In this document: positions 6,165 to 24,579 of the stretch, piece by piece
How positions within the stretch are numbered: the stretch's first letter is position 1
Layout: each line of letters begins with the position of its first letter
Origin: a virus
Strand: one strand, 5' to 3'
Virus record (IMG/VR): IMGVR_UViG_3300029319_000468
Span: 1-25,195 of that record
DNA length: 25,195 bases
The notes under the pieces: generated by a model
The model's input: only the letters and a program-made list of their open reading frames with translations
The model's database searches: none
What the model was told of the DNA's origin: nothing
Translations under genes and position numbers: made by a program

Positions 6165-9100
6165 ATGGCTGAGATTGTTTTAAACAAAGAGTTTCTTATT
6201 AACAATGAGAAATTTTTAAACGATGCCCAAATATTCTTGGCTGAACGAGAAGATAAAGATTTGGGTGATCCAGAAGAAATATATGATGCCTTTATGGAAC
6301 ATTTTAGGTATCAGAATGTAAATGAAGTAACTGCACTAAAAGATTTGTACTACGTTTCAAATCAAGCAGACGCAGAGGGCATTGCTCGTATGGGTCGGCT
6401 GATGGATACGTATGACCGTATGGATAGTGACTTCGGCTTAGAAGCTGCTCAAGATTACTTGGGCGGCGTTTTTACTGCGCCATCAACATATGCTGGCATG
6501 TTTTCTTTTGGTGCTGCCAAGGCAGGTTCGCTTGCCGCACAACAAGGTATAAAGTTAGGAATTAAAGAAGTCATAAAACAAGCTGCAAAGAAAAAAGGTG
6601 TAAAGCTAACTAAAAAGCAACTTGATGACGTTACATTTGATACAACACGTAAGCGTCTAGCACGTCGTGCTGCCGGTGAAAAAATAGCACCTGTCACTGT
6701 TGCGGATAGGGCAAGAAACATAGGTCAAGGCATAAAAGCTGGCGGTTATCGTGCTGGGATTGGCTCTGCTGCTGTTGAAACTTTAGGTGCGGGTGCAGGA
6801 GTTACTGCCCAAGAGATGACACGTGTTCGTGCTATTGAAGACTACGAAGAAGTAGACTTGACTAACATTGGCTTGGCTACAGGTCTTTCAGCACTTACAG
6901 GCGGTGTTATTGGAACACTCACTGGTGCGCAAAGAGCAATTCGCTCTAATGTAGCAGAGCAGTATGTTATACGTGAATTAGGAAAACAAAAACGACAAAT
7001 TACGTTAGCATATAAAAATAAAACTCAACCCATATTTAATAGTAAAACATACGGTAAAGCTGCCAAAGAAAATGAAGCAGCACTAAAACTTTCTCTTGAA
7101 GAAACTCTCCCCGGCGCAAGAGCAGAAGGAGAAAAGGTTAAGAAAAAACTTACTGGTGGTCGTCGTAAGGCTTTTGAAAAGTACGAAAACTTGACAACAA
7201 GTTTACAAGATATGGAGATAAAAAATATTGCTGCTGCAGCAACTGCAATGATAAAGAAAATTGGTCCACGTGACGGAGTTGTTAGAGGTAGTAAAGAGGA
7301 TTTCCAAGAACGTATTACGTCACGTATTGCTCGTGGCTTAAAGGGTGGTCAGATAACTACAGATGGCATGGTTCAAATTATGAAGGATCATGGCATTACA
7401 CTTGATCAGTTTAGTGCTTTTTATGTAGCTGATATTTCTGAAGCTGCTAGAAAACTTGGTACGCAAGGAAGATTAGCTAAGGCAGAAGCGGATTCAATTA
7501 AAGCTGATCTGACCGCCATAGATAAATCTTTGATGGAGTTGGGTTCAAGCACAGAGGCAGCTTACGTTCAAGCTAAAAAGCTAACACAGGGTAAGTTTGG
7601 ATTGACTAGAGTGGGAGATTTTATATCTGCCTTAAATAAATCTCGTATTGGTCTTATGACTATTCAAGCTGCCACAACTGTTCGTAACACCACAAACGGA
7701 CTTATGCGTAACTATGTTTATGCACTAGAGAACTTGGGTACAGGTGCTTATAATATAGTGGAAGGGGGAGTACAGAAAGCATTTGCTTCTGCTACAAACA
7801 AACAATTAAGAGATATAGCAGACTTATCGGTGCGCACCGGCATTGCTCAAATGAAAGCTGGCGGCAAAGGACTTTTTTTTGACGACATGTTCTTTGGTAT
7901 GCAGTCACAGGAAGCTGCTATTTTAACTAAGATGTTGCGTGACCCCAGATTGCAATACTCTAATCAGGCGCAAGAAATGTTTAGAGAGTTGGGTGATATT
8001 GCTCAACTGAGTGGTTTTGAGGCTAGTCCCATGTTAAAGGCGGCTCGTTTTGCAAACGGCTTTAATACTATGAGTGATAACATGTTTAAATCTGCCATCT
8101 TCACTCGTGAGATAAATAAGATGATTCAGATTGATCCTGACGGAGTGTTTAAGAAAGCAAACATAAACGGTCTTGACGATCTATTAAAAAGAGAAAAGTT
8201 TGGATTTATAGGTGATAAAGCTATTGCTCGTGCAATGGATGAAGCACTAGACTTTACGTACCAGACAGGCAGATTTAAAGGACGTGAAGGTGGGTTTAAT
8301 GTGTTTGCTGATGGCTTTATACAATTTTTTAGCACTACATTTGGTTCCTCTGTAGTTCCATTTCCCCGCTATCTAATCAATCAATTTAGATTTGTATACG
8401 AACATGCCCCTGTGTTTGGTCTATTAAATATGGGCGGTATATTAAATAAAACAGGAAAGGGTGGCGCACAAGCTATGTCTGTGCGCATGGGTAAACAGTT
8501 TAGTGGTGCTGCCACGCTTGGTGCATTTTACGCTCTTCGCGTACATTATGGCGATGAAAATACTAAATTCTATGAATATAATGATCCAACAACGGGTGGC
8601 ACAATAAATGCCAAAGCCTCTCTTGGCCCGTTTATGGCATATGCTTATGTAGCAGATTTGCTATATCGTTTGGGTAAGCCGGGTGGAAAACTGTCAGAAG
8701 TTATGGGCGATCCAGACTTTAAACTACATGATAATGATCGTGTTGCTATGGAGAAGGTGAACACCAGAGAGATGATTGAAGCCTTTACTGGTAGCCAGTT
8801 CCGTTCAGGAACAGGACTTGATATTATTGATGGCTCTGTAAAACTTCTTCTTGGTGAGACAGCAGAAGCAAAAGCTAGTGACAGACTTGAATCTGCAGCA
8901 GCAAAATTCCTTGGAAATTATTTTAGCACGTTCAGTGTCGGTGCAGGTGTTATTAAAGACATCTATGCACAGTATGATCCTGCATATGTAAATGTTCCAG
9001 TTAGTGAAGATATTCAGTTCTGGCCTTACTTCTTTAAACAAGCAACACGCAGTCTTCCTATTTCGGCAGAGGGTAGTGAGGCGTTTTTGTGGTCACCTAT

Positions 9101-15841: not shown

Positions 15842-17884
15842 TCATGCCACATCTTTCGTGTCAAGCCAGTTAGGACCGATTTTTGCTTCTAAAAGCATCG
15901 GAACATTTAACTTGACAGCAAAAGCATTGTTAATCAAGTCGGTAAGATTATCATTCATGTTCTTCACCAGAGAAATAATTTTTTCTTCTTCCTCTGGGTG
16001 AATGTCAATCACCACTGAATCATGCACTGTGTTAACAATACAACTCTTCATAGTTGATAATCTCTTTTCCATCTCAAGTAACACAACAGGAACAATGTCT
16101 GCTGTGGCAAATCCCTGCACGGGATAATTCTTTATCTGTGTAAAGTACGACACAGTTCCGTTCATCTTACGCACAACATTGGGAAATGAATACTGACGAC
16201 CAGATGGCGTAGTAATCATCTTTGTTGTCAAAGCCTCTTTAGCCAATCGGGAATGCCAAGCTGCGATGCCTTTGTACTTCGTATTGAAGTGTGTGTAATA
16301 CTCCGCTTCCGCTGCAGTTCTCCCATATCCCGTTGCACCATAAAGCGGAGCAAACGTATGCGCCTTCGCAGTCTGACGATCCGTAGGTTGACCAGCATCG
16401 GTAATAACCTTAGCGGTATATGAGTGTACATCAAACCCAGTAGATACTTCATCAATAGCAACTCCATCTTGTGATAGGAAAGCAGCGGCACGAAACTCCA
16501 ACTGCGCAAAGTCAGCTTCCATAATCTTGCCACCTTCCCACCGTGATACGAACACTTTTTTTACAGGAAAAGTGCCGCCACGTGGCATGTTCTGCATGTT
16601 TGGATCAGCACCAGAGAAGCGACCAGTAGCCGTGCGATGCTGCAGGAGACGGACATGCAGTTTACCGTCTGCCTTCCTGTAGGTATTTATGCCATCAACG
16701 AATGATGACAGGTAAGTATCTAGCGCACTCAAACGCTTTACCTTATTTAAGAAGCTGATTGCATCGTGCATATTGTGCTGACGTGCAAATCCTTCAAGTA
16801 TCTCAAGGTGTGTCTTGCTAGTTGTGAAACCATTAGCACTGACCCACTTGGCATCCGGTGCAGTAAAGCGTAGTCCAGCAACCCTTTCAGACTCAACAAA
16901 CACGTACCCGTTCCCATCACAAACCTTACATTTGTTTGGCCTTGCATACTTACTTCCATCTTTCCGGGTACGATACACCTTACCTGAACCGTCACAGGTG
17001 TGACACTTTTGTGGTTCTTTCTTGTAGACGATCTCGCTGTTCTCTTTCATCACAGTCTTGTATAACTCCTTTGACATATATGGATCAAAGTTGTTTTGCC
17101 ACATGGCTTTGTCAATAGGCTTGCGACTATAGATTACTTGAGACAATTGCTCTGGGCTATTGAGATTGACGTGACGATGCCCCATCAACTTATGTACCAT
17201 AGTCTCCAACTCACTTGTCAGTGTCTGCTTCTCGTTCTCAAACTCGACACGTACATCTTCCAGTACACTTTCGTTTACCTTGAACCCACGCTGATAAATT
17301 CTAGCCAGCACCACAGCGACTTGATTAGACAGGACAACAGTGTCCATAAGACCTGCGTACTCTTTGCTCATTAACTTTGCATACTGCCTGTCAGACAACT
17401 CCTGTGTCGCATGAAGGTCAGCAACTAGATACTCAGTAAGTTCGTTGTATGGTATGTCTCTGGTGCTTATGCCCTGTTTGAAATATTCTTTCAGTGTATC
17501 CTGCTTCTGCCAACTCAGTTCATAGCGTTGCGCACATGCGTCAAGAGACAGTGGTTCTTTCTGCCCACGCTGCATGACATACTCTGCCAGCATCGTGTCA
17601 AACACAGGGCCGTCATACTTGAAACCTGACTCCCACAGCCATACAAGATCGTGCGGGGCATTGTGGCATATCAAGATCGTAGCTTCATCCAGCATCATTT
17701 GCACACGATCAAAGTAGTCATCTTGATTGGGACGGTCAGCGTGATCAAATGGGAATGTCAGACACTGACCTTGGTCTGTCAGCATACCAACCATTACAAG
17801 TGAATTGGTAGGCTCAAACGGATCAAGATGCATCTTACCATCCCTATGTGTCACCGTGTTTTCTACATCAAGTGTTAGTTTCAT
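15842..17884 (-). CDS. Family A DNA polymerase with 3'-5' exonuclease and DnaJ-type zinc insert, 680 aa
   Basis: This is the replicative polymerase. The proofreading exonuclease is intact: D6-x-E8 (Exo I), N75-x3-D79 (Exo II), Y152-x3-D156 (Exo III). The polymerase motifs follow: A with D458 in EADFAQLEFR, B with K507, F511 and Y515 in KAHTFAPLYG, C with H621-D622-S623. Between the two domains, residues 294-326 contain two CxxCxGxG knuckles (C294/C297 and C319/C322), like one zinc unit of DnaJ, where other family A polymerases have thumb. This arrangement is the known signature of HMO-2011-type phages. F511 is equivalent to Phe762 of E. coli Pol I. There is AGGAG ahead of the ATG and a 17-base overlap with the endonuclease VII-like gene. 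Confidence 0.96.
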   Translation of the reverse strand: MKLTLDVENTVTHRDGKMHLDPFEPTNSLVMVGMLTDQGQCLTFPFDHADRPNQDDYFDRVQMMLDEATILICHNAPHDLVWLWESGFKYDGPVFDTMLAEYVMQRGQKEPLSLDACAQRYELSWQKQDTLKEYFKQGISTRDIPYNELTEYLVADLHATQELSDRQYAKLMSKEYAGLMDTVVLSNQVAVVLARIYQRGFKVNESVLEDVRVEFENEKQTLTSELETMVHKLMGHRHVNLNSPEQLSQVIYSRKPIDKAMWQNNFDPYMSKELYKTVMKENSEIVYKKEPQKCHTCDGSGKVYRTRKDGSKYARPNKCKVCDGNGYVFVESERVAGLRFTAPDAKWVSANGFTTSKTHLEILEGFARQHNMHDAISFLNKVKRLSALDTYLSSFVDGINTYRKADGKLHVRLLQHRTATGRFSGADPNMQNMPRGGTFPVKKVFVSRWEGGKIMEADFAQLEFRAAAFLSQDGVAIDEVSTGFDVHSYTAKVITDAGQPTDRQTAKAHTFAPLYGATGYGRTAAEAEYYTHFNTKYKGIAAWHSRLAKEALTTKMITTPSGRQYSFPNVVRKMNGTVSYFTQIKNYPVQGFATADIVPVVLLEMEKRLSTMKSCIVNTVHDSVVIDIHPEEEEKIISLVKNMNDNLTDLINNAFAVKLNVPMLLEAKIGPNWLDTKDVA
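16990..17005. repeat. Palindrome copy inside the DNA polymerase gene
   Basis: On the + strand this reads CGTCACAGGTGTGACA, one mismatch from the consensus TGTCACA-NN-TGTGACA. On the coding strand it encodes C-H-T-C-D of the first zinc knuckle. It shares 20 identical bases (16991-17010) with the copy in the primase gene, including the flanking CTTTT. Because the codons for CHxCD produce this palindrome naturally, a DNA-level role for this copy is uncertain. Confidence 0.6.
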
Positions 17885-18311: not shown

Positions 18312-19540
18312 ACCATATACCTTCCTGTACGATAGTCCAGTTCACAATGAACGACGCCATGCCATCCACTTAGCTTGTTCTTTACAACATTGATGTGCCG
18401 TTGCAAATCTTCTGGAGCATTGGGATCGTCGTCTTGCTTGACTGGGTTCTTTGCAATCAGAACCATCAGATCAGCCTCTGCTGCCTTACCTGTGCGTGAC
18501 CCCTCCATCATTGCCTGATTGAGAATGACCTTACCTTCTGCATCGGCAGAAAGCTGTGACATGTAAAACACAGCACACTCGTACTGCTTGGCAATCATAC
18601 GTGCGTGTATTGCATTAGCCTTGAGTGCTTCATCTGGACGAGCAAAGCCACCCTGCCGCGCAAACTTGTCACCCATGTCAAGAAGAATGACATCGGGCTT
18701 ATACGTCTTGCAGACTGACTCAACCCAAGACATATCACGTCCCGTAGCATCTTTGATCTTGATACGTTCTTTGATGGGGGCGTACAGATCACGCGCCTTA
18801 CTAGGATTTTTCTTTATCTCACGCATGGTCATGCCCGTGGCTGCTGTCAGATAACGTGCGCCAACACGGTGACTACCTTCCTCGTTACAGAGGATGATAC
18901 AGTTAGCACCCTGCGCTGCCATACCACCGGGGCTGGCAATCAAGCTGGCATGGAACGATGTCTTACCAGTGTTGGGCCGTGCGCCAATCTCAATCAGGTG
19001 TCCAGCATTAACGCCTTCCACAAACTGTGCGAGAGTAGGAATGTTAAACGTCCACCGTGCCTCAAGATCATTCTTTACTAGCAAAGTATCAATGTCGATA
19101 TCGTCCCACTCCACATTCATGTCAGGCAAGAAGTCATCGTTGTATTGCTCAAGCAGCCGTCTAAGCGACTCCAAGCTACCCTGATCACCATTGACGTATT
19201 CAAACCCCAATTCAGCAATGTCCGTACCCACAACCTGCTGAAACAGCTTGGACAGCACTTCTTGTGCTACGTCGCTGCCCATCGGGTTTTCCTTCTTGAT
19301 GTTGTTGAACACAGCAGAGTACGCCAACTTGTTTGATGGCGTCAGTGTGGGATTGTTAGACAAGAACAATGCCTCCACTTCCTCTGGTGTCACAGTGCGT
19401 TCATAGCGATCCATTGCCATGTCAATGGTCTTCTTGATCTTGCGGTTCTCTGGATTAAACAACCTGTCAGGACACTTAGCGCCACGATGTGCATCGTAGA
19501 ACTCCTTGTCCATCAGGCTCCTTATAATTGATAATTCCAT
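18308..19540 (-). CDS. DnaB/T7 gp4-type replicative DNA helicase, 410 aa
   Basis: This is a RecA-fold SF4 helicase that unwinds the fork ahead of the polymerase. Walker A is G186-ARPNT-G192-K193-T194 and Walker B is DVILLD at 283-288. The sensor-type YMSQLS motif (about 326-331) and a basic GSRTGKAAEADLM block (about 347-359) are where DnaB family motifs H3 and H4 lie. Residues 1-160 are a helical N-terminal region without the DnaB zinc or TOPRIM primase domain, because the primase is the separate gene upstream. The start overlaps the primase stop as TAATG, with AAGGAG just ahead, so the two are probably made together. Confidence 0.93.
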   Translation of the reverse strand: MELSIIRSLMDKEFYDAHRGAKCPDRLFNPENRKIKKTIDMAMDRYERTVTPEEVEALFLSNNPTLTPSNKLAYSAVFNNIKKENPMGSDVAQEVLSKLFQQVVGTDIAELGFEYVNGDQGSLESLRRLLEQYNDDFLPDMNVEWDDIDIDTLLVKNDLEARWTFNIPTLAQFVEGVNAGHLIEIGARPNTGKTSFHASLIASPGGMAAQGANCIILCNEEGSHRVGARYLTAATGMTMREIKKNPSKARDLYAPIKERIKIKDATGRDMSWVESVCKTYKPDVILLDMGDKFARQGGFARPDEALKANAIHARMIAKQYECAVFYMSQLSADAEGKVILNQAMMEGSRTGKAAEADLMVLIAKNPVKQDDDPNAPEDLQRHINVVKNKLSGWHGVVHCELDYRTGRYMV

Positions 19541-20307
19541 TACACTTCTCCTTTGTCTTGAAATAGATGCATCTTCTGTACATCCACGGGGTTACGGTAT
19601 TTTATGTCGTAGTTCAAGCGCAGCACTTTTACATTCCTCACGTGACCACGCAACTCTTTGGCGTACTGTAGTGTCTTTGGCAAAGCATCGGGGTCTAATG
19701 CCATGACGGCTGTCGAGAACTGCGAGAGATACCCTTTATGCAATTCAGAGAGGGAAGTTCCAAGAATTGCAACCCCGACAAAGGAATCGTACTCACCAAC
19801 AACGACTGCACTCACGCAGTCCTCAACAACCACAGCGACATTACCACGTCCATGAACAAATGGCAAGCCACTATTTCCATACCTTTTCCACTTGGGTAGC
19901 TTACGCCCCAACGCACGACCTGTCGCATCTACTGGTGTATTAGCGTGATAGCACACGAACACAGCCCTATGTTCTTTGACATCGTACATGAGATTGTCTG
20001 GGTCAATGCCCCACGTGTCTGCGTACTCTAACACAGCACTACGATTGTCATGCGGCACAATAAACTCAGGCAGTACGAAGTCATTTGTCACAGGTGTGAC
20101 ACTTTTCATCCTACGAATATCCTCTACAGATAAACGAGAACGAATAGAACCACTAACACTACAAGAGGCTTTGTAACAATTCCACAACAAAGACCCCATG
20201 TTATTGGTAGCAGTAAATGTCTTGTACGACTTACAGACAGGACAGTTGAGCCTACGAGACTCACCACTGGCAATACCTAAGTCCTCTACAAATGTACGTA
20301 CATCCAT
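19540..20307 (-). CDS. TOPRIM DNA primase with N-terminal zinc finger, 255 aa
   Basis: It makes RNA primers for lagging-strand synthesis. The zinc-binding site is C22-x2-C25...C44-x4-C49, as in T7 gp4 and DnaG. The TOPRIM catalytic fold shows E162 (in VVVEDCVSA) and D205-x-D207 (in ALDPDA). The length fits a primase half of T7 gp4, here split from its helicase. GGAG sits eight bases ahead of the ATG. A 54-base AT-rich gap separates it from the integrase, the only gap of note within the replication cassette. It contains one 16-bp palindrome copy at 20086-20101. Confidence 0.92.
   Translation of the reverse strand: MDVRTFVEDLGIASGESRRLNCPVCKSYKTFTATNNMGSLLWNCYKASCSVSGSIRSRLSVEDIRRMKSVTPVTNDFVLPEFIVPHDNRSAVLEYADTWGIDPDNLMYDVKEHRAVFVCYHANTPVDATGRALGRKLPKWKRYGNSGLPFVHGRGNVAVVVEDCVSAVVVGEYDSFVGVAILGTSLSELHKGYLSQFSTAVMALDPDALPKTLQYAKELRGHVRNVKVLRLNYDIKYRNPVDVQKMHLFQDKGEV
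20086..20101. repeat. Palindrome copy inside the primase gene
   Basis: A perfect copy of TGTCACAGGTGTGACA (7-bp arms, 2-bp centre). On the coding strand it reads in a different frame from the polymerase copy (V-T-P-V-T), so it is not explained by a conserved protein motif. It shares a 20-base run (20087-20106) with the copy in the polymerase gene. Confidence 0.7.
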
Positions 20308-20361: not shown

Positions 20362-21261
20362 TTAGATATCATGATTTTTACGAGCCGTCAATGCTAAATC
20401 TGCACTGGTGAAAGTATTTTTCATGTACGGCTTCACACTCTGTGGGTTAGCATGTCCTGTAACCGACATAATTTGTGCCATACCGACACCAGCATCGACC
20501 ATTTCCGTTGTGCCAGTTCGCCGCAGGTCAGATAGTCGCAGTTCTTCGGGTAGACCAGCCTCACGCATGATCCTACGTGCCACTTTGGGCAAGCGGTGCA
20601 ATGAGTAAGGATGATAAACACCCCGAATAGGCTCTGTCATTGGTGCAACGTAAGGTTGAAAGCCAAAGTCTTGCTGCTGTTGAAACAACATATCCAACAA
20701 ATCACCAGATATGGGCAAGAACACCTCTGCCCTACGCTTTGACTGCTCAATATGTACACGAGACTTATCAAATTGTATAGAATCCCACTGTAGCATACGC
20801 ATGTCACCCAAACGCTGGCACCACTCGTATGCCATCTGTGCGATTAAACCCACATTGCGGCTGCTGTAGTCGCCATAAGCGGTGTTCAGGAAGGTCTGTA
20901 CCTGTTCCTTAGTCCACACCGTCCTACGGGGCTTTACAGAGCGTTTCTTGACAGCCAAGAATGGATTCACCAGCACAATCTCCATGTTCAACCCGTGATT
21001 AAACAGGATGCGAGAGGAAGACAGCACATGATTAGCAAACTGTACGCCCCTCTCACACCATTGGTTGTACGCCAGTTTTACCAGACGGGATGACACTTTG
21101 TCACATTGTCTATCCCGAATGGCCTTGCTGTCAATCACAGTGTCGAGCATGATACCAATGTGGTATTGATACTGTCTCTTAGTTTCTTCCCGTAAGTTAT
21201 TGAACTCATAGGAAGAATAGTAATCGTCGGCTAATCCTTGTAGATCATGCTTGGTTGCCAT
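20362..21261 (-). CDS. int: Tyrosine site-specific recombinase (integrase), 299 aa
   Basis: It would integrate or excise the phage genome by strand exchange. The N-terminal core-binding (SAM-like) domain spans about 1-110, and the catalytic domain shows R150 (in CQRLGD), K175 in the beta-hairpin, S244-x2-R247 in SDLRR, H270 in TGHANP and the nucleophile Y279. The usual His of HxxR is Ser here, a substitution seen in some active relatives. The start at 21261 is chosen because AGGAG is about eight bases upstream; a longer frame to 21339 would need a TTG start without a ribosome binding site. It overlaps the previous small gene by 31 bases. It lies first in the replication cassette, as in other marine podoviruses with integrases. 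Confidence 0.93.
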   Translation of the reverse strand: MATKHDLQGLADDYYSSYEFNNLREETKRQYQYHIGIMLDTVIDSKAIRDRQCDKVSSRLVKLAYNQWCERGVQFANHVLSSSRILFNHGLNMEIVLVNPFLAVKKRSVKPRRTVWTKEQVQTFLNTAYGDYSSRNVGLIAQMAYEWCQRLGDMRMLQWDSIQFDKSRVHIEQSKRRAEVFLPISGDLLDMLFQQQQDFGFQPYVAPMTEPIRGVYHPYSLHRLPKVARRIMREAGLPEELRLSDLRRTGTTEMVDAGVGMAQIMSVTGHANPQSVKPYMKNTFTSADLALTARKNHDI

Positions 21262-21446
21262 GAGACTATCTCCTCGTGAATTTCTGTGATCTCTGCCCTT
21301 TTCAAATTTAAACCTCGTGTTGTACAGGCACGATGCCAATCCAACATGAGGTTAGATTTAGCGTGTTCACTGTGGCTTGCCTTCCCGTACCAAGTTAGTT
21401 CACCGTGAAACTTATTGGGTGAAAAGGTAATTTTATACATCCTCAT
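21231..21446 (-). CDS. Small phage protein upstream of integrase, 71 aa
   Basis: A basic, mixed alpha/beta protein starting MRMYKITFSPNKFHGELTWY, with two Trp and three His; no metal motif. GGAG lies about seven bases ahead of the ATG. Its 3' end contains the integrase Shine-Dalgarno (in the Glu-Glu codons), so integrase expression is tied to its translation. A role as an excisionase or DNA-binding partner is possible from position but not supported by any helix-turn-helix that I can see. Confidence 0.7.
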   Translation of the reverse strand: MRMYKITFSPNKFHGELTWYGKASHSEHAKSNLMLDWHRACTTRGLNLKRAEITEIHEEIVSWQPSMIYKD

Positions 21447-21708
21447 TTTTCTTCTCCTCTTTTTTAAAGACGTTGTTTAAGAACCTTTTGTGGAAGTCCT
21501 CAATGCCCTTACTACGATACGCAGTGCTATTGCGGGAAAACCTAGCTTTCCACCGGCCAGTGGAAGGCCAGTAGATGTACTGTTTGTCATGTTCATTCCA
21601 AATGTACATCATACTGACTGCTCCCTCTACCCATTCATACCTGATATTGTTTTCTTTCAGGTATTCTTCCGCACCGATATCTCCTTCTTCGGTGTACCAA
21701 TAAGCCAT
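21433..21708 (-). CDS. Small Tyr/Trp-rich phage protein, 91 aa
   Basis: The first half is acidic and aromatic (MAYWYTEEGDIGAEEYLKEN), the middle has WPSTGRWKARF, and the C-terminus is basic with a highly charged KKEEKKNEDV tail. No catalytic or Cys motif. The ATG overlaps the DUF932 stop as TAATG, and the end overlaps the next gene by 14 bases. I do not recognise the family. Confidence 0.7.
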   Translation of the reverse strand: MAYWYTEEGDIGAEEYLKENNIRYEWVEGAVSMMYIWNEHDKQYIYWPSTGRWKARFSRNSTAYRSKGIEDFHKRFLNNVFKKEEKKNEDV

Positions 21709-22556
21709 TACGCTGCTACCAGTTCACGAAACTGCGGAGTATTGATCCAGCCAGCCACGTCCTGCTCACGCTTCCACAGGCTCTGTGCTTGCGTATCATT
21801 GCCTGTGCGGCGAAGTGCAAAACCATTAGTGTCTACATTCAATGGGTTAGCGTAGCTAGTGAATGCAGAATATAAAGCCCACACATTGCGACCACGTGTC
21901 ACAGTCTCGTGATTATACAAGCTGAACATCTTCTCTGCCTTCTCATCAGACATGATTGACTTGAGCATTGCACTCACATCAATGGTGTACAGCTTTGTCT
22001 CTGCCCACTTTTGATATGTGTCCGCCGTGTTATTGAAGTCCTGAATGGTATGTTCCAGTTCACCAATGAAACGATCCAAGTCAAAGTTAGTTGTGTTCTT
22101 ACGTTTGATCTTGTCGTAGTCGCCAGTGATCATACCATTCGTACAGAAGAAGTCGATGGCTCCGTAGTACACCTGATTGGAACAGCTACCGTCGATGCCA
22201 TGCAGGGCAATGAGACGGGGTGCAATGGTAGTCGTGTGCTTGTCTGTGACAATCTTACGCAGCACGTTGGGCATGACCATCTCCATCATCACCCATGCAT
22301 TATTACGCGCAGTGCTAAACTTGAGATTCATGTTGTCGCAAACCTCTTCACCAAGATGCTCCGACACAGCGTTGTGCGCACGAGTAAAGAAGTCACCGTG
22401 GCTGGCACATTTGAACTTCTTACCAACGATACCAAGGTACTCCCCTGTGTTGCCGTTGATGACGTACTTGGACTTGTGAAAGTGTGTGTCCTCGTAGACC
22501 ACAGGAAAGTTAATGTCTTCGGGGATTAGTTCTTCGGCTGTAAAATCTAGTGGCAT
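21708..22556 (-). CDS. DUF932 (phage/plasmid-like TIGR03299-type) protein, 282 aa
   Basis: The body follows the DUF932 pattern: an early YVINGNTGEYLGIVGKKFKC strand pair, a NMNLKFSTARNNAWVMMEMV core, a GSCSNQVYYGAIDFFCTNGM block near the middle, and a helical C-terminal half. DUF932 proteins are widespread in phages and plasmids; most lack a known function. The start at 22556 is chosen for its AAAGGAG. An in-frame upstream extension would begin at ATG 22604 or TTG 22634 and add a CHRCDKC segment, but no ribosome binding site supports it. It is the first gene after a good sigma70-like promoter and a palindromic site, so it may be separately regulated. Confidence 0.85.
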   Translation of the reverse strand: MPLDFTAEELIPEDINFPVVYEDTHFHKSKYVINGNTGEYLGIVGKKFKCASHGDFFTRAHNAVSEHLGEEVCDNMNLKFSTARNNAWVMMEMVMPNVLRKIVTDKHTTTIAPRLIALHGIDGSCSNQVYYGAIDFFCTNGMITGDYDKIKRKNTTNFDLDRFIGELEHTIQDFNNTADTYQKWAETKLYTIDVSAMLKSIMSDEKAEKMFSLYNHETVTRGRNVWALYSAFTSYANPLNVDTNGFALRRTGNDTQAQSLWKREQDVAGWINTPQFRELVAA

Positions 22557-22576: not shown

Positions 22577-22592
22577 TGTCACACCTGTGACA
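22577..22592. promoter_or_regulatory. Palindromic operator-like site ahead of DUF932 gene
   Basis: A perfect TGTCACA-CC-TGTGACA, centred about 28 bases upstream of the DUF932 ATG, immediately before its AAAGGAG, and downstream of the promoter at 22623-22651. On the leftward strand it shares TGTCACAGGTGTGACAAA (18 bases) with the site at 24564-24579. The placement after the predicted transcription start suits a repressor site, or an mRNA hairpin of about five base pairs; the binding protein is unknown. Confidence 0.65.
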
Positions 22593-22622
22593 GTTGAAGC
22601 CCATGAGGGCAAGTGATGCTCT

Positions 22623-22651
22623 GTTATACAACAAAGCGTAGGTAAAGTCAA
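22623..22651 (-). promoter_or_regulatory. Sigma70-like promoter for DUF932 and downstream genes
   Basis: On the leftward strand, TTGACT (complement of 22646-22651) is followed by a 17-base spacer and TATAAC (complement of 22623-22628): five of six bases match in each box, with the ideal spacing. Start of transcription would be near 22616. The -35 box lies just beyond the stop of the lysin gene. It is the best host-type promoter I see in the window and suggests the phage uses host RNA polymerase for this block. Confidence 0.65.
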
Positions 22652-22652
22652 G

Positions 22653-23072
22653 TCAGTCCCACCGATAAAATACGTGGTCTCCGATTTGAACTGTCTTGTA
22701 TTTTGTCTCTGCCCATTCGGGCAGGACGTAGGTTGCATGGTAATGCGTGGCACCCTCAACAAAATCTCCAAGATTACCATTGTAAACGCCCACGGCGATC
22801 ATTTTGGCTATCTCAAATGCCTCTGTATCCGGTGTCTTGTCTGACTTGCCGTCACAGTACCAGCTAAACTGACAACGATTGCGCACGGGGAAGTTGGGTT
22901 TCCATGCGTATGTTGGCCCTTGGTATACAACCCCACACACGTCGTCAGGATACCTGTCGTCACGCACACGGTTCATCACCACTTGGGCTACCGCAACCTG
23001 CCCAATGAAGGGCTGGTCACGGGCCTCATGGTAGATGTTCAATGCAAGACACATAATTGCTGCTTCAAACAT
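22653..23072 (-). CDS. SleB/CwlJ-type cell-wall hydrolase (probable endolysin), 139 aa
   Basis: The family (Hydrolase_2) contains lytic transglycosylases or amidase-like enzymes that cut peptidoglycan. Here the whole small domain is present: LALNIYHEAR with E16 as the expected catalytic Glu, GQVAVAQVVMNRV, VCGVVYQ, FSWYCDG, a GATHYHATYV block and GDHVFYR at the end. It probably releases progeny phage. There is no signal peptide, so it would need a holin. The ATG at 23072 overlaps the previous stop (TAATG) and is about 11 bases from GGAG; the longer frame would start with GTG without spacing. It lies in the leftward block rather than with the virion genes. Confidence 0.9.
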   Translation of the reverse strand: MFEAAIMCLALNIYHEARDQPFIGQVAVAQVVMNRVRDDRYPDDVCGVVYQGPTYAWKPNFPVRNRCQFSWYCDGKSDKTPDTEAFEIAKMIAVGVYNGNLGDFVEGATHYHATYVLPEWAETKYKTVQIGDHVFYRWD

Positions 23073-23317
23073 TAGTAATCCCACTCCTTTATTTCTACGT
23101 TTTTATCCACGATGGCATTTTTTAACTGCCACCACGCATCATCAATGGCTTTGAGATCATCGTAGTCAATGGATGACAAGTCTCCAACACGGGTACGGAC
23201 AGGCACCCACGCTTTCAGCAGTTTTAGTATAGACCGTTGTTGATGGTCGCTGAAGTTTGCCCATGTTTCTACGGCTTCTTCCATACGAATTTCCCATTCT
23301 GTTTTTTCTTCACTCAT
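23072..23317 (-). CDS. Small acidic phage protein, 81 aa
   Basis: A soluble helical protein with many Glu and Trp (MSEEKTEWEIRMEEAVETWA) and a middle basic segment (SILKLLKAWVPVRTRVGDLS). GGAG lies about nine bases ahead of the ATG. It overlaps the lysin gene by one base, so their translation is probably coupled, but nothing in the sequence indicates a lysis function. The family is not recognised. Confidence 0.7.
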   Translation of the reverse strand: MSEEKTEWEIRMEEAVETWANFSDHQQRSILKLLKAWVPVRTRVGDLSSIDYDDLKAIDDAWWQLKNAIVDKNVEIKEWDY

Positions 23318-24563: not shown

Positions 24564-24579
24564 TGTCACACCTGTGACA
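24564..24579. promoter_or_regulatory. Palindromic operator-like site ahead of membrane protein gene
   Basis: A perfect TGTCACA-CC-TGTGACA, one base after the stop of the 55-aa gene and three bases before the AAGGAG of the 93-aa membrane protein gene. It is fully non-coding, and together with the copy at 22577-22592 shows that the palindrome recurs at the same place relative to a ribosome binding site. I see no clear -35/-10 pair right beside this one. Confidence 0.6.

Follow-up and report, generated by a model that had tools for sequence, protein, structure and literature searches.

Does the gap that separates the lysin and DUF932 genes of this phage hold a point from which its leftward genes can be controlled? 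The window, that is, the whole stretch of 25,195 nucleotides analysed here, belongs to an HMO-2011-type phage: its family A DNA polymerase is 67.5% identical to that of HMO-2011, and its gene order, as read from PHROG and Pfam matches, agrees with the HMO-2011 table. An earlier note on this DNA had proposed a promoter in the gap, a palindrome just downstream in the leader, and control of the leftward block at that palindrome. The features concerned are listed below; related contigs and loci carry L numbers.

16990-17005, minus strand: one-mismatch copy of the dyad inside the DNA polymerase gene, a possible weak operator
19540-20307, minus strand: DNA primase gene (PHROG 47)
20086-20101, minus strand: putative operator copy inside the primase gene, exact dyad
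20362-21339, minus strand: tyrosine integrase gene (PF00589); longest open reading frame, the true start may be internal
21708-22556, minus strand: DUF932 gene (Pfam PF06067), led by the promoter and the putative operator
22571-22565, minus strand: Shine-Dalgarno AAAGGAG of the DUF932 gene, whose ATG is at 22556
22577-22592, minus strand: putative operator, leader copy (dyad TGTCACA-N2-TGTGACA, here TGTCACAGGTGTGACA), replaced by GTCCCAA-N-TTGGGAC in related phages
22599-22610, minus strand: short leader inverted repeat GCCC-N4-GGGC, between promoter and putative operator
22623-22651, minus strand: sigma70-type promoter TTGACT-17-TATAAC, just past the stop codon of the lysin gene
22653-23084, minus strand: cell wall hydrolase (lysin, Hydrolase_2) gene (PF07486), upstream of the promoter
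24564-24579, minus strand: putative operator copy, intergenic, ahead of a Shine-Dalgarno and ATG, exact dyad

The promoter in the DUF932 leader

The proposed TTGACT-17-TATAAC is indeed present in the gap at 22651-22623 (-), where a scanner requiring T at the last -10 position misses it. Alignment of the gap among relatives also bore out the proposal: both boxes are exact at 17-bp spacing in 22 of 24 DUF932 leaders (the window plus 23 loci, many near-identical), and the spacer has diverged into seven distinct sequences. The exact boxes are absent from the two exceptions, L083 and L084. Some distant DUF932 genes (39-53% identity; among them L113, L114, L161, L168, L196 and L260) retain the form TTGAC[ATC]-17-TATAA[CG], which is absent in other distant relatives, e.g., L146 and L170.

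Counting matches proved a poor guide. The window contains 17 promoter matches of at least 10/12, compared with a mean of 10.5 and a maximum of 20 in 50 shuffles, and because 10/12 matches are common we rejected the match count as evidence for a promoter. Four matches in the window reach 11/12, two of them being TTGACA-17-TATAAC, and the site in the gap is not, as had been claimed, the best promoter seen. Both TTGACA-17-TATAAC matches lie on the same strand, at 23579-23551 (-) and 15864-15836 (-), and are nearer to consensus than the DUF932 promoter; the latter coincides with the end of the polymerase gene. It is conservation that argues for a DUF932 promoter, which by match count alone would not exceed chance.

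Spacing from the boxes predicts a transcript start near 22616, a position that would place the palindrome at about +25 to +40. Transcription of DUF932, the integrase and the replication cassette separately from the genes at the right edge, as the earlier note suggested, may be regarded as plausible, and the leftward block holds further promoter-like sites besides the one in the gap. The short inverted repeat between promoter and palindrome also occurs in relatives, as GCCG/CGGC in L057 and as GCCC/GGGC in L226, L215 and L301.

Palindromic sites and their exchange between related phages

The palindrome lies in the leader as described (22592-22577), but it is not peculiar to the leader. The exact dyad TGTCACA-N2-TGTGACA, which defines the sites called group A here, has three copies in the window and none in 200 Markov shuffles, and no repeated 7-2-7 palindrome of any sequence arose within any of those shuffles; a loose count allowing up to three mismatches was unremarkable (5 in the window, 2.6 expected). 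For the copy within the primase gene, all 14 specified bases are retained by 10 of 13 aligned relatives, with up to 80 of 254 third positions differing, and in two of these 10 the centre has changed from CC to GG. The three relatives that lack this copy are L078 and L079, both devoid of group A sites, and L082, whose sole group A site is the leader copy. The one-mismatch copy in the polymerase gene is intact in three of seven aligned relatives and absent in L075, L009, L078 and L079.

A scan of viral contigs for one form of the 16-mer returned 68 stretches, mostly single-copy, and among the multi-copy contigs are relatives to which the DUF932 protein had led independently. Whole-record copy counts in ten chosen records were 8, 8, 7, 4, 4, 2, 1, 0, 0 and 0; group A dyads number eight each in L065 and L009, seven in L059, and four each in L076 and L044. 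Eight group A sequences, some redundant, supplied 38 exact sites. A Shine-Dalgarno and start codon follow within 44 nt in 24 of these, and nine have a promoter-like match of at least 9/12 within 110 nt upstream, all nine scoring 10. The arms are sequence-invariant, and the centre flips between CC and GG at corresponding places. In L059 (84-112), and at the same place in L009, a further promoter-like TTGACA-17-TATCTT is followed by an operator-like dyad 37 nt past the -10 box, a layout like that at 22577. L082 carries a lone group A dyad in its DUF932 leader (33-48) and no second copy in its 22-kb record; this leader looks like a recombinant.

Related phages hold other dyads at the same position. 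In group E DUF932 leaders, a like promoter is followed by GTCCCAA-N-TTGGGAC in place of TGTCACA-N2-TGTGACA, and this dyad lies at -33 to -38 in 18 of 19 distinct DUF932 leaders from contigs fetched by the group E pattern. The leader copy matches that pattern solely in L196 and L260, so the leader dyad is not simply the bait. Four of 18 group E leaders (L199, L215, L226 and L301) also contain the same kind of inverted repeat as the window. All six distinct group B leaders listed retain the promoter, and none of the six has a site of the tested classes; among GTCC-class leaders a minority has a comparable promoter match and none has a site in the leader. At the usual dyad place (-34), the L202 leader carries GTATCAA-N-TTGATAC, with a TGTCCCAA dyad 2 kb downstream in the same contig, possibly a further specificity or a hybrid.

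Because a different, group-specific palindrome holds the same leader position in related phages, the palindrome is well supported as a putative control site, and this part of the earlier proposal stands. The notion of control at that one place fares less well, one copy lying inside the primase gene; control is probably spread across the block rather than exerted at a single point. The dyad differs between closely related phages, and for that reason we rejected the reading as a site for a host regulator.

Further dyads mark other lineages: TGTCTGA-N3-TCAGACA in L086, L088 and L090-L092, GTCCAA-N2-TTGGAC in CRP-345 and CRP-1, and AGTCCG-N4-CGGACT in HMO-2011. Perfect-arm copies in the last three phages lie within the early block or just ahead of it. 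L078, whose DUF932 protein is 93% identical and which lacks group A sites, has a single TGTCCCAAGTTGGGACA dyad ahead of a Shine-Dalgarno and ATG; its pattern, the one by which group E was reached, matched 116 stretches in viral contigs, and among the matches listed most had one copy and several had 4 to 10.

Scanning for repeated perfect 6-base arms recovered the known sets of CRP-345, CRP-1 and HMO-2011 (5-6 copies, shuffle maximum 2). The same scan gave nothing above the shuffle maximum in the integrase-bearing isolates CRP-2, CRP-603 and CRP-207, in CRP-738 and HTVC033P (50,000 bases each for these two and CRP-207), or in L083, L084, L079 and L078. No repeated perfect dyad was found in the 20,964 of 52,963 bases scanned of CRP-3, a phage reported to integrate (PMC6918029). 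A mismatch-tolerant scan was too blunt, missing the known CRP-345 set; its counts exceeded those of shuffles by one in CRP-3, CRP-603 and CRP-207 and by two in L079 and L093. A TGTACA-N3 cluster in L079 was rejected, having no clean dyad on inspection. The main texts of PMC9038755 and PMC6918029 contain none of the terms palindrom, repressor and promoter.

The first early gene and its linkage to the sites

The first gene of the early block adjoins the first sites. It has no significant Pfam or PHROG match. With an alignment of the HMO-2011, CRP-345 and CRP-1 proteins as query, 77 contigs were found by the first-gene protein only (the main family), L112 among them at 100% identity to HMO-2011. 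At least two GTCC...GGAC sites are present in 73 of the 77; L125, L169, L170 and L172 have zero GTCC sites and carry CCCCAA or CCCCGA dyads instead, two of L125's four copies being imperfect. If the surroundings of the gene are taken to reach from -700 of its start to 5 kb past its end, the 77 contigs have 330 strict sites in 364 kb of such surroundings and a single one in the remaining 354 kb. Twelve records measure 36-57 kb; each has its sites gathered in one block of about 6 kb or less (65 sites altogether, none outside the blocks), and a reversed-pattern control gave none.

A set of 62 non-redundant loci contains 296 sites, of which 52 precede the first gene, 57 fall within it and 187 follow it. 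Most loci have a site about 100-400 nt ahead of the gene and another inside it at about +400. The intragenic site falls in the same frame in all 57 cases, and in 49 of them it encodes S-N/D-V-G or P-N/D-V-G within the linker of the protein. A Shine-Dalgarno and start lie within 80 nt downstream of 42% of main-family sites, compared with 19% of random positions. Promoters beside the sites are weakly enriched, and most sites have no recognisable promoter nearby.

This placement bears on two readings other than that of operators. Start codons close behind the sites, both here and at 24 of 38 group A sites, are what would be expected of an RNA hairpin ahead of ribosome-binding sites that acts in translation or mRNA processing, possibly with the first-gene protein binding RNA. 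A 7-bp stem closed by two nucleotides, however, is not a feasible hairpin, and the invariant arms and CC/GG flips of group A indicate that sequence, not pairing, is conserved. The sites 100-400 nt ahead of the first gene and those inside it also fit a hairpin poorly, and we consider this explanation very improbable. Alternatively, the dyads could be ParB-like partition, replication or genome-organisation sites. Known parS sites cluster round parAB, much as these 16-17 bp palindromes cluster round one gene. At the sequence level, however, five first-gene proteins had no ParB model among their Pfam matches up to E 1, and sites in promoter leaders and ahead of start codons point to expression; there is hardly any likelihood in such a role.

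The first gene of group A was identified at L065:6360-6905 and in L017, with sites ahead of it and directly past its stop codon. A profile of these two sequences, from which the candidate regulator of the window's group is assigned, matched the main family moderately (E 1.1e-5, 82% probability, residues 72-168); with six group E homologues added, the match was E 2.8e-5 (74%). The group B candidate (P0002) had no significant match to the main family. In a reverse test, the single L078 dyad led to many-copy contigs, and six of 13 loci examined hold a homologue of P0001, the first-gene protein of the window's group (phmmer E 2.3e-6 to 1.5e-3); in the five such loci with upstream sequence, sites begin 190-350 nt before the gene. 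By comparison with L065, the window phage's own first-gene regulator probably lies beyond the right edge, past 25195. Ahead of the L065 first gene there is also a row of four TGTC-N8-GACA dyads (6192-6273, starting at 6192, 6211, 6234 and 6258, 19-24 bp apart), which recurs in L017 with one member degenerate.

In tblastn searches of the phages collection, a main-family regulator matched HMO-2011, CRP-345 and CRP-1 only, and the group A protein had no match. Sequence searches of the PDB found no clear relative of the first-gene protein. AlphaFold models of moderate confidence (mean pLDDT 71 and 60) show a small all-helical protein; because of this moderate quality and because structure searches returned no solved structure that clearly matched, a helix-turn-helix is at most a possible reading.

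Specificity, proposed function and comparison with known systems

Within the main family, operator bases covary with residues of one predicted helix (residues 111-118 of the AlphaFold model with mean pLDDT 71). Where position 3 of the helix is Thr, operator base 5 tends to be A; where it is Ser and position 7 is Lys, base 5 tends to be G. Counting half-sites outside the gene, Thr-Ala proteins have 171 A, 3 G and 2 C, and Thr-Lys proteins 106 A and 4 G. For Ser with Lys at position 7, G outnumbers A by 87 to 5; Lys-Lys proteins have G in all 22 half-sites, and Ser-Arg proteins have 69 A and 15 G. On a tree of the N-terminal domain minus the helix and linker, base 5 switched seven independent times, six with the rule, none against and one undecided (sign test p 0.031, a descriptive value since the rule was read off the same data). 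A simpler rule (position 3 not Thr) gave five, none and two (p 0.0625). The outer bases follow suit, with 286 GT and 0 CC for Lys/Arg boxes, 13 CC and 0 GT for Asp/Ser boxes, and 5 GT and 1 CC for L175 (Glu), counts that represent few independent events. In the contigs without GTCC sites, the CCCC set of L172 was seen before the rule was noticed; those of L169, L170 and L125 were sought afterwards. For these three the rule predicted A as the fifth base, and the sites that turned up are of the CCCCAA type. In L131 and L133 the site upstream of the first gene is GTCCAA, with flanks as in L143, and L131's other sites are GTCCGA, which suggests recombination just ahead of the regulator gene.

From the conserved promoter, the multi-copy site, the linkage of site sets to one gene and the covariation of site and protein, we infer binding, dimerisation, repression and a part in lysogeny. 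The account we think probable, with some reserve, is that the dyads are operators of a phage-encoded, probably dimeric regulator, the product of the first early gene, which would repress the early block. The 16-17 bp dyads bound by the protein would comprise those ahead of its own gene, those between genes, those in a handful of promoter leaders and those within certain coding sequences. Bound at 22577, the protein would occupy the leader at about +25 to +40 and halt polymerase early on its way from the DUF932 promoter; at the remaining sites it may obstruct polymerase like a roadblock or silence the whole block, after the manner of Cluster A phages. Most sites have no recognisable promoter nearby, a placement that fails to distinguish repression from other roles.

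Such a protein would probably be the immunity repressor of an integrase-bearing phage. Of 37 chosen contigs, which comprise 34 of the 77 together with L065, L090 and L091, 31 have an integrase, as do all 29 with a length of at least 26 kb; on this ground we favour a role in lysogeny. No prophage backs this step, as 84,980 bacterial and archaeal genomes scanned with one sequence pattern gave 52 matches, among which tblastn confirmed no first-gene relative. The negative dyad scans of CRP-3, over the part covered, and of the integrase-bearing CRP-2, CRP-603 and CRP-207 also count against the account as a whole. The same protein and sites might instead serve the lytic cycle, switching off early genes as Cro does or acting as an activator, and play no part in lysogeny. 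This alternative keeps some weight because no genome relative was confirmed and because the gene heads the early block; its internal site near +400 would suit negative feedback. The integrase in every long contig speaks against it, as does the group-specific change of operators, which is typical of immunity groups (PMC6550527), and we regard a purely lytic regulator as rather unlikely.

The site sets resemble several known systems in part. The Cluster A stoperators (L5, Bxb1; Rep) are described as phage-specific site sets spread over the genome, most of them off promoters, with motif and protein co-diverging (PMC6550527). Here too the sites are multiple, most without a promoter (nine of 38 group A sites have a promoter-like match upstream), and motif and protein diverge together. 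Stoperators, however, are reported as 13-bp, asymmetric and mostly in one orientation to transcription (PMC4351075), whereas the present sites are palindromic, their centre flips, and their putative regulator has no significant Pfam match. In Cluster O mycobacteriophages (Corndog), which lack an integrase, 17-bp dyad repeats (TGTTCGG-N3-CCGAACA) occur in more than 30 copies and are given as of unknown function (PMC4351075). These share with our sites a short dyad with invariant arms and a free centre, many copies, greater density in one transcribed block, and both intergenic and intragenic positions; ours differ in dyad sequence, in copy number (2-10 per contig), in having a candidate binding gene and in their lineage-dependent specificity. 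The master repressor MrpR of SPbeta is tyrosine-recombinase-like, and its 15-bp SPBRE motif lies in promoter regions (PMC10516654). The SPBRE is likewise a repeated element set, in a prophage, for one phage-encoded regulator, a binding we propose here from sequence comparison; the first-gene product is modelled as a small all-helical protein without a clear structural match.

The dyads are scattered through the early genes of a widespread marine phage family. Several lineages differ in the version they carry, and this version and the first early gene, which probably encodes the repressor that binds it, change together. In a bolder form of the proposal, to which we give an even chance, this gene represents an undescribed family of DNA-binding immunity regulators with a readable residue-to-base code, acting via genome-distributed palindromic operators; the whole set, including the copy in the regulator's own coding sequence, would be rewritten upon a change of specificity, creating immunity groups in a dominant ocean phage type. 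Site sets that lead to their own regulator allow possible immunity groups to be recognised in metagenomes, and how repressor-operator specificity evolves can be tested on natural pairs that differ in a single helix and a single operator base. Distributed dyads of this kind may also help to interpret the unexplained Cluster O repeats.

One further small gene was seen. A protein of about 70 amino acids (KKSVKLYTDNVL...) is encoded at L065:5270-5485 (-) and corresponds to HMO-2011 gp71 and CRP-345 gp81; its gene adjoins the point where early and late genes diverge, in phages that belong to different operator groups.
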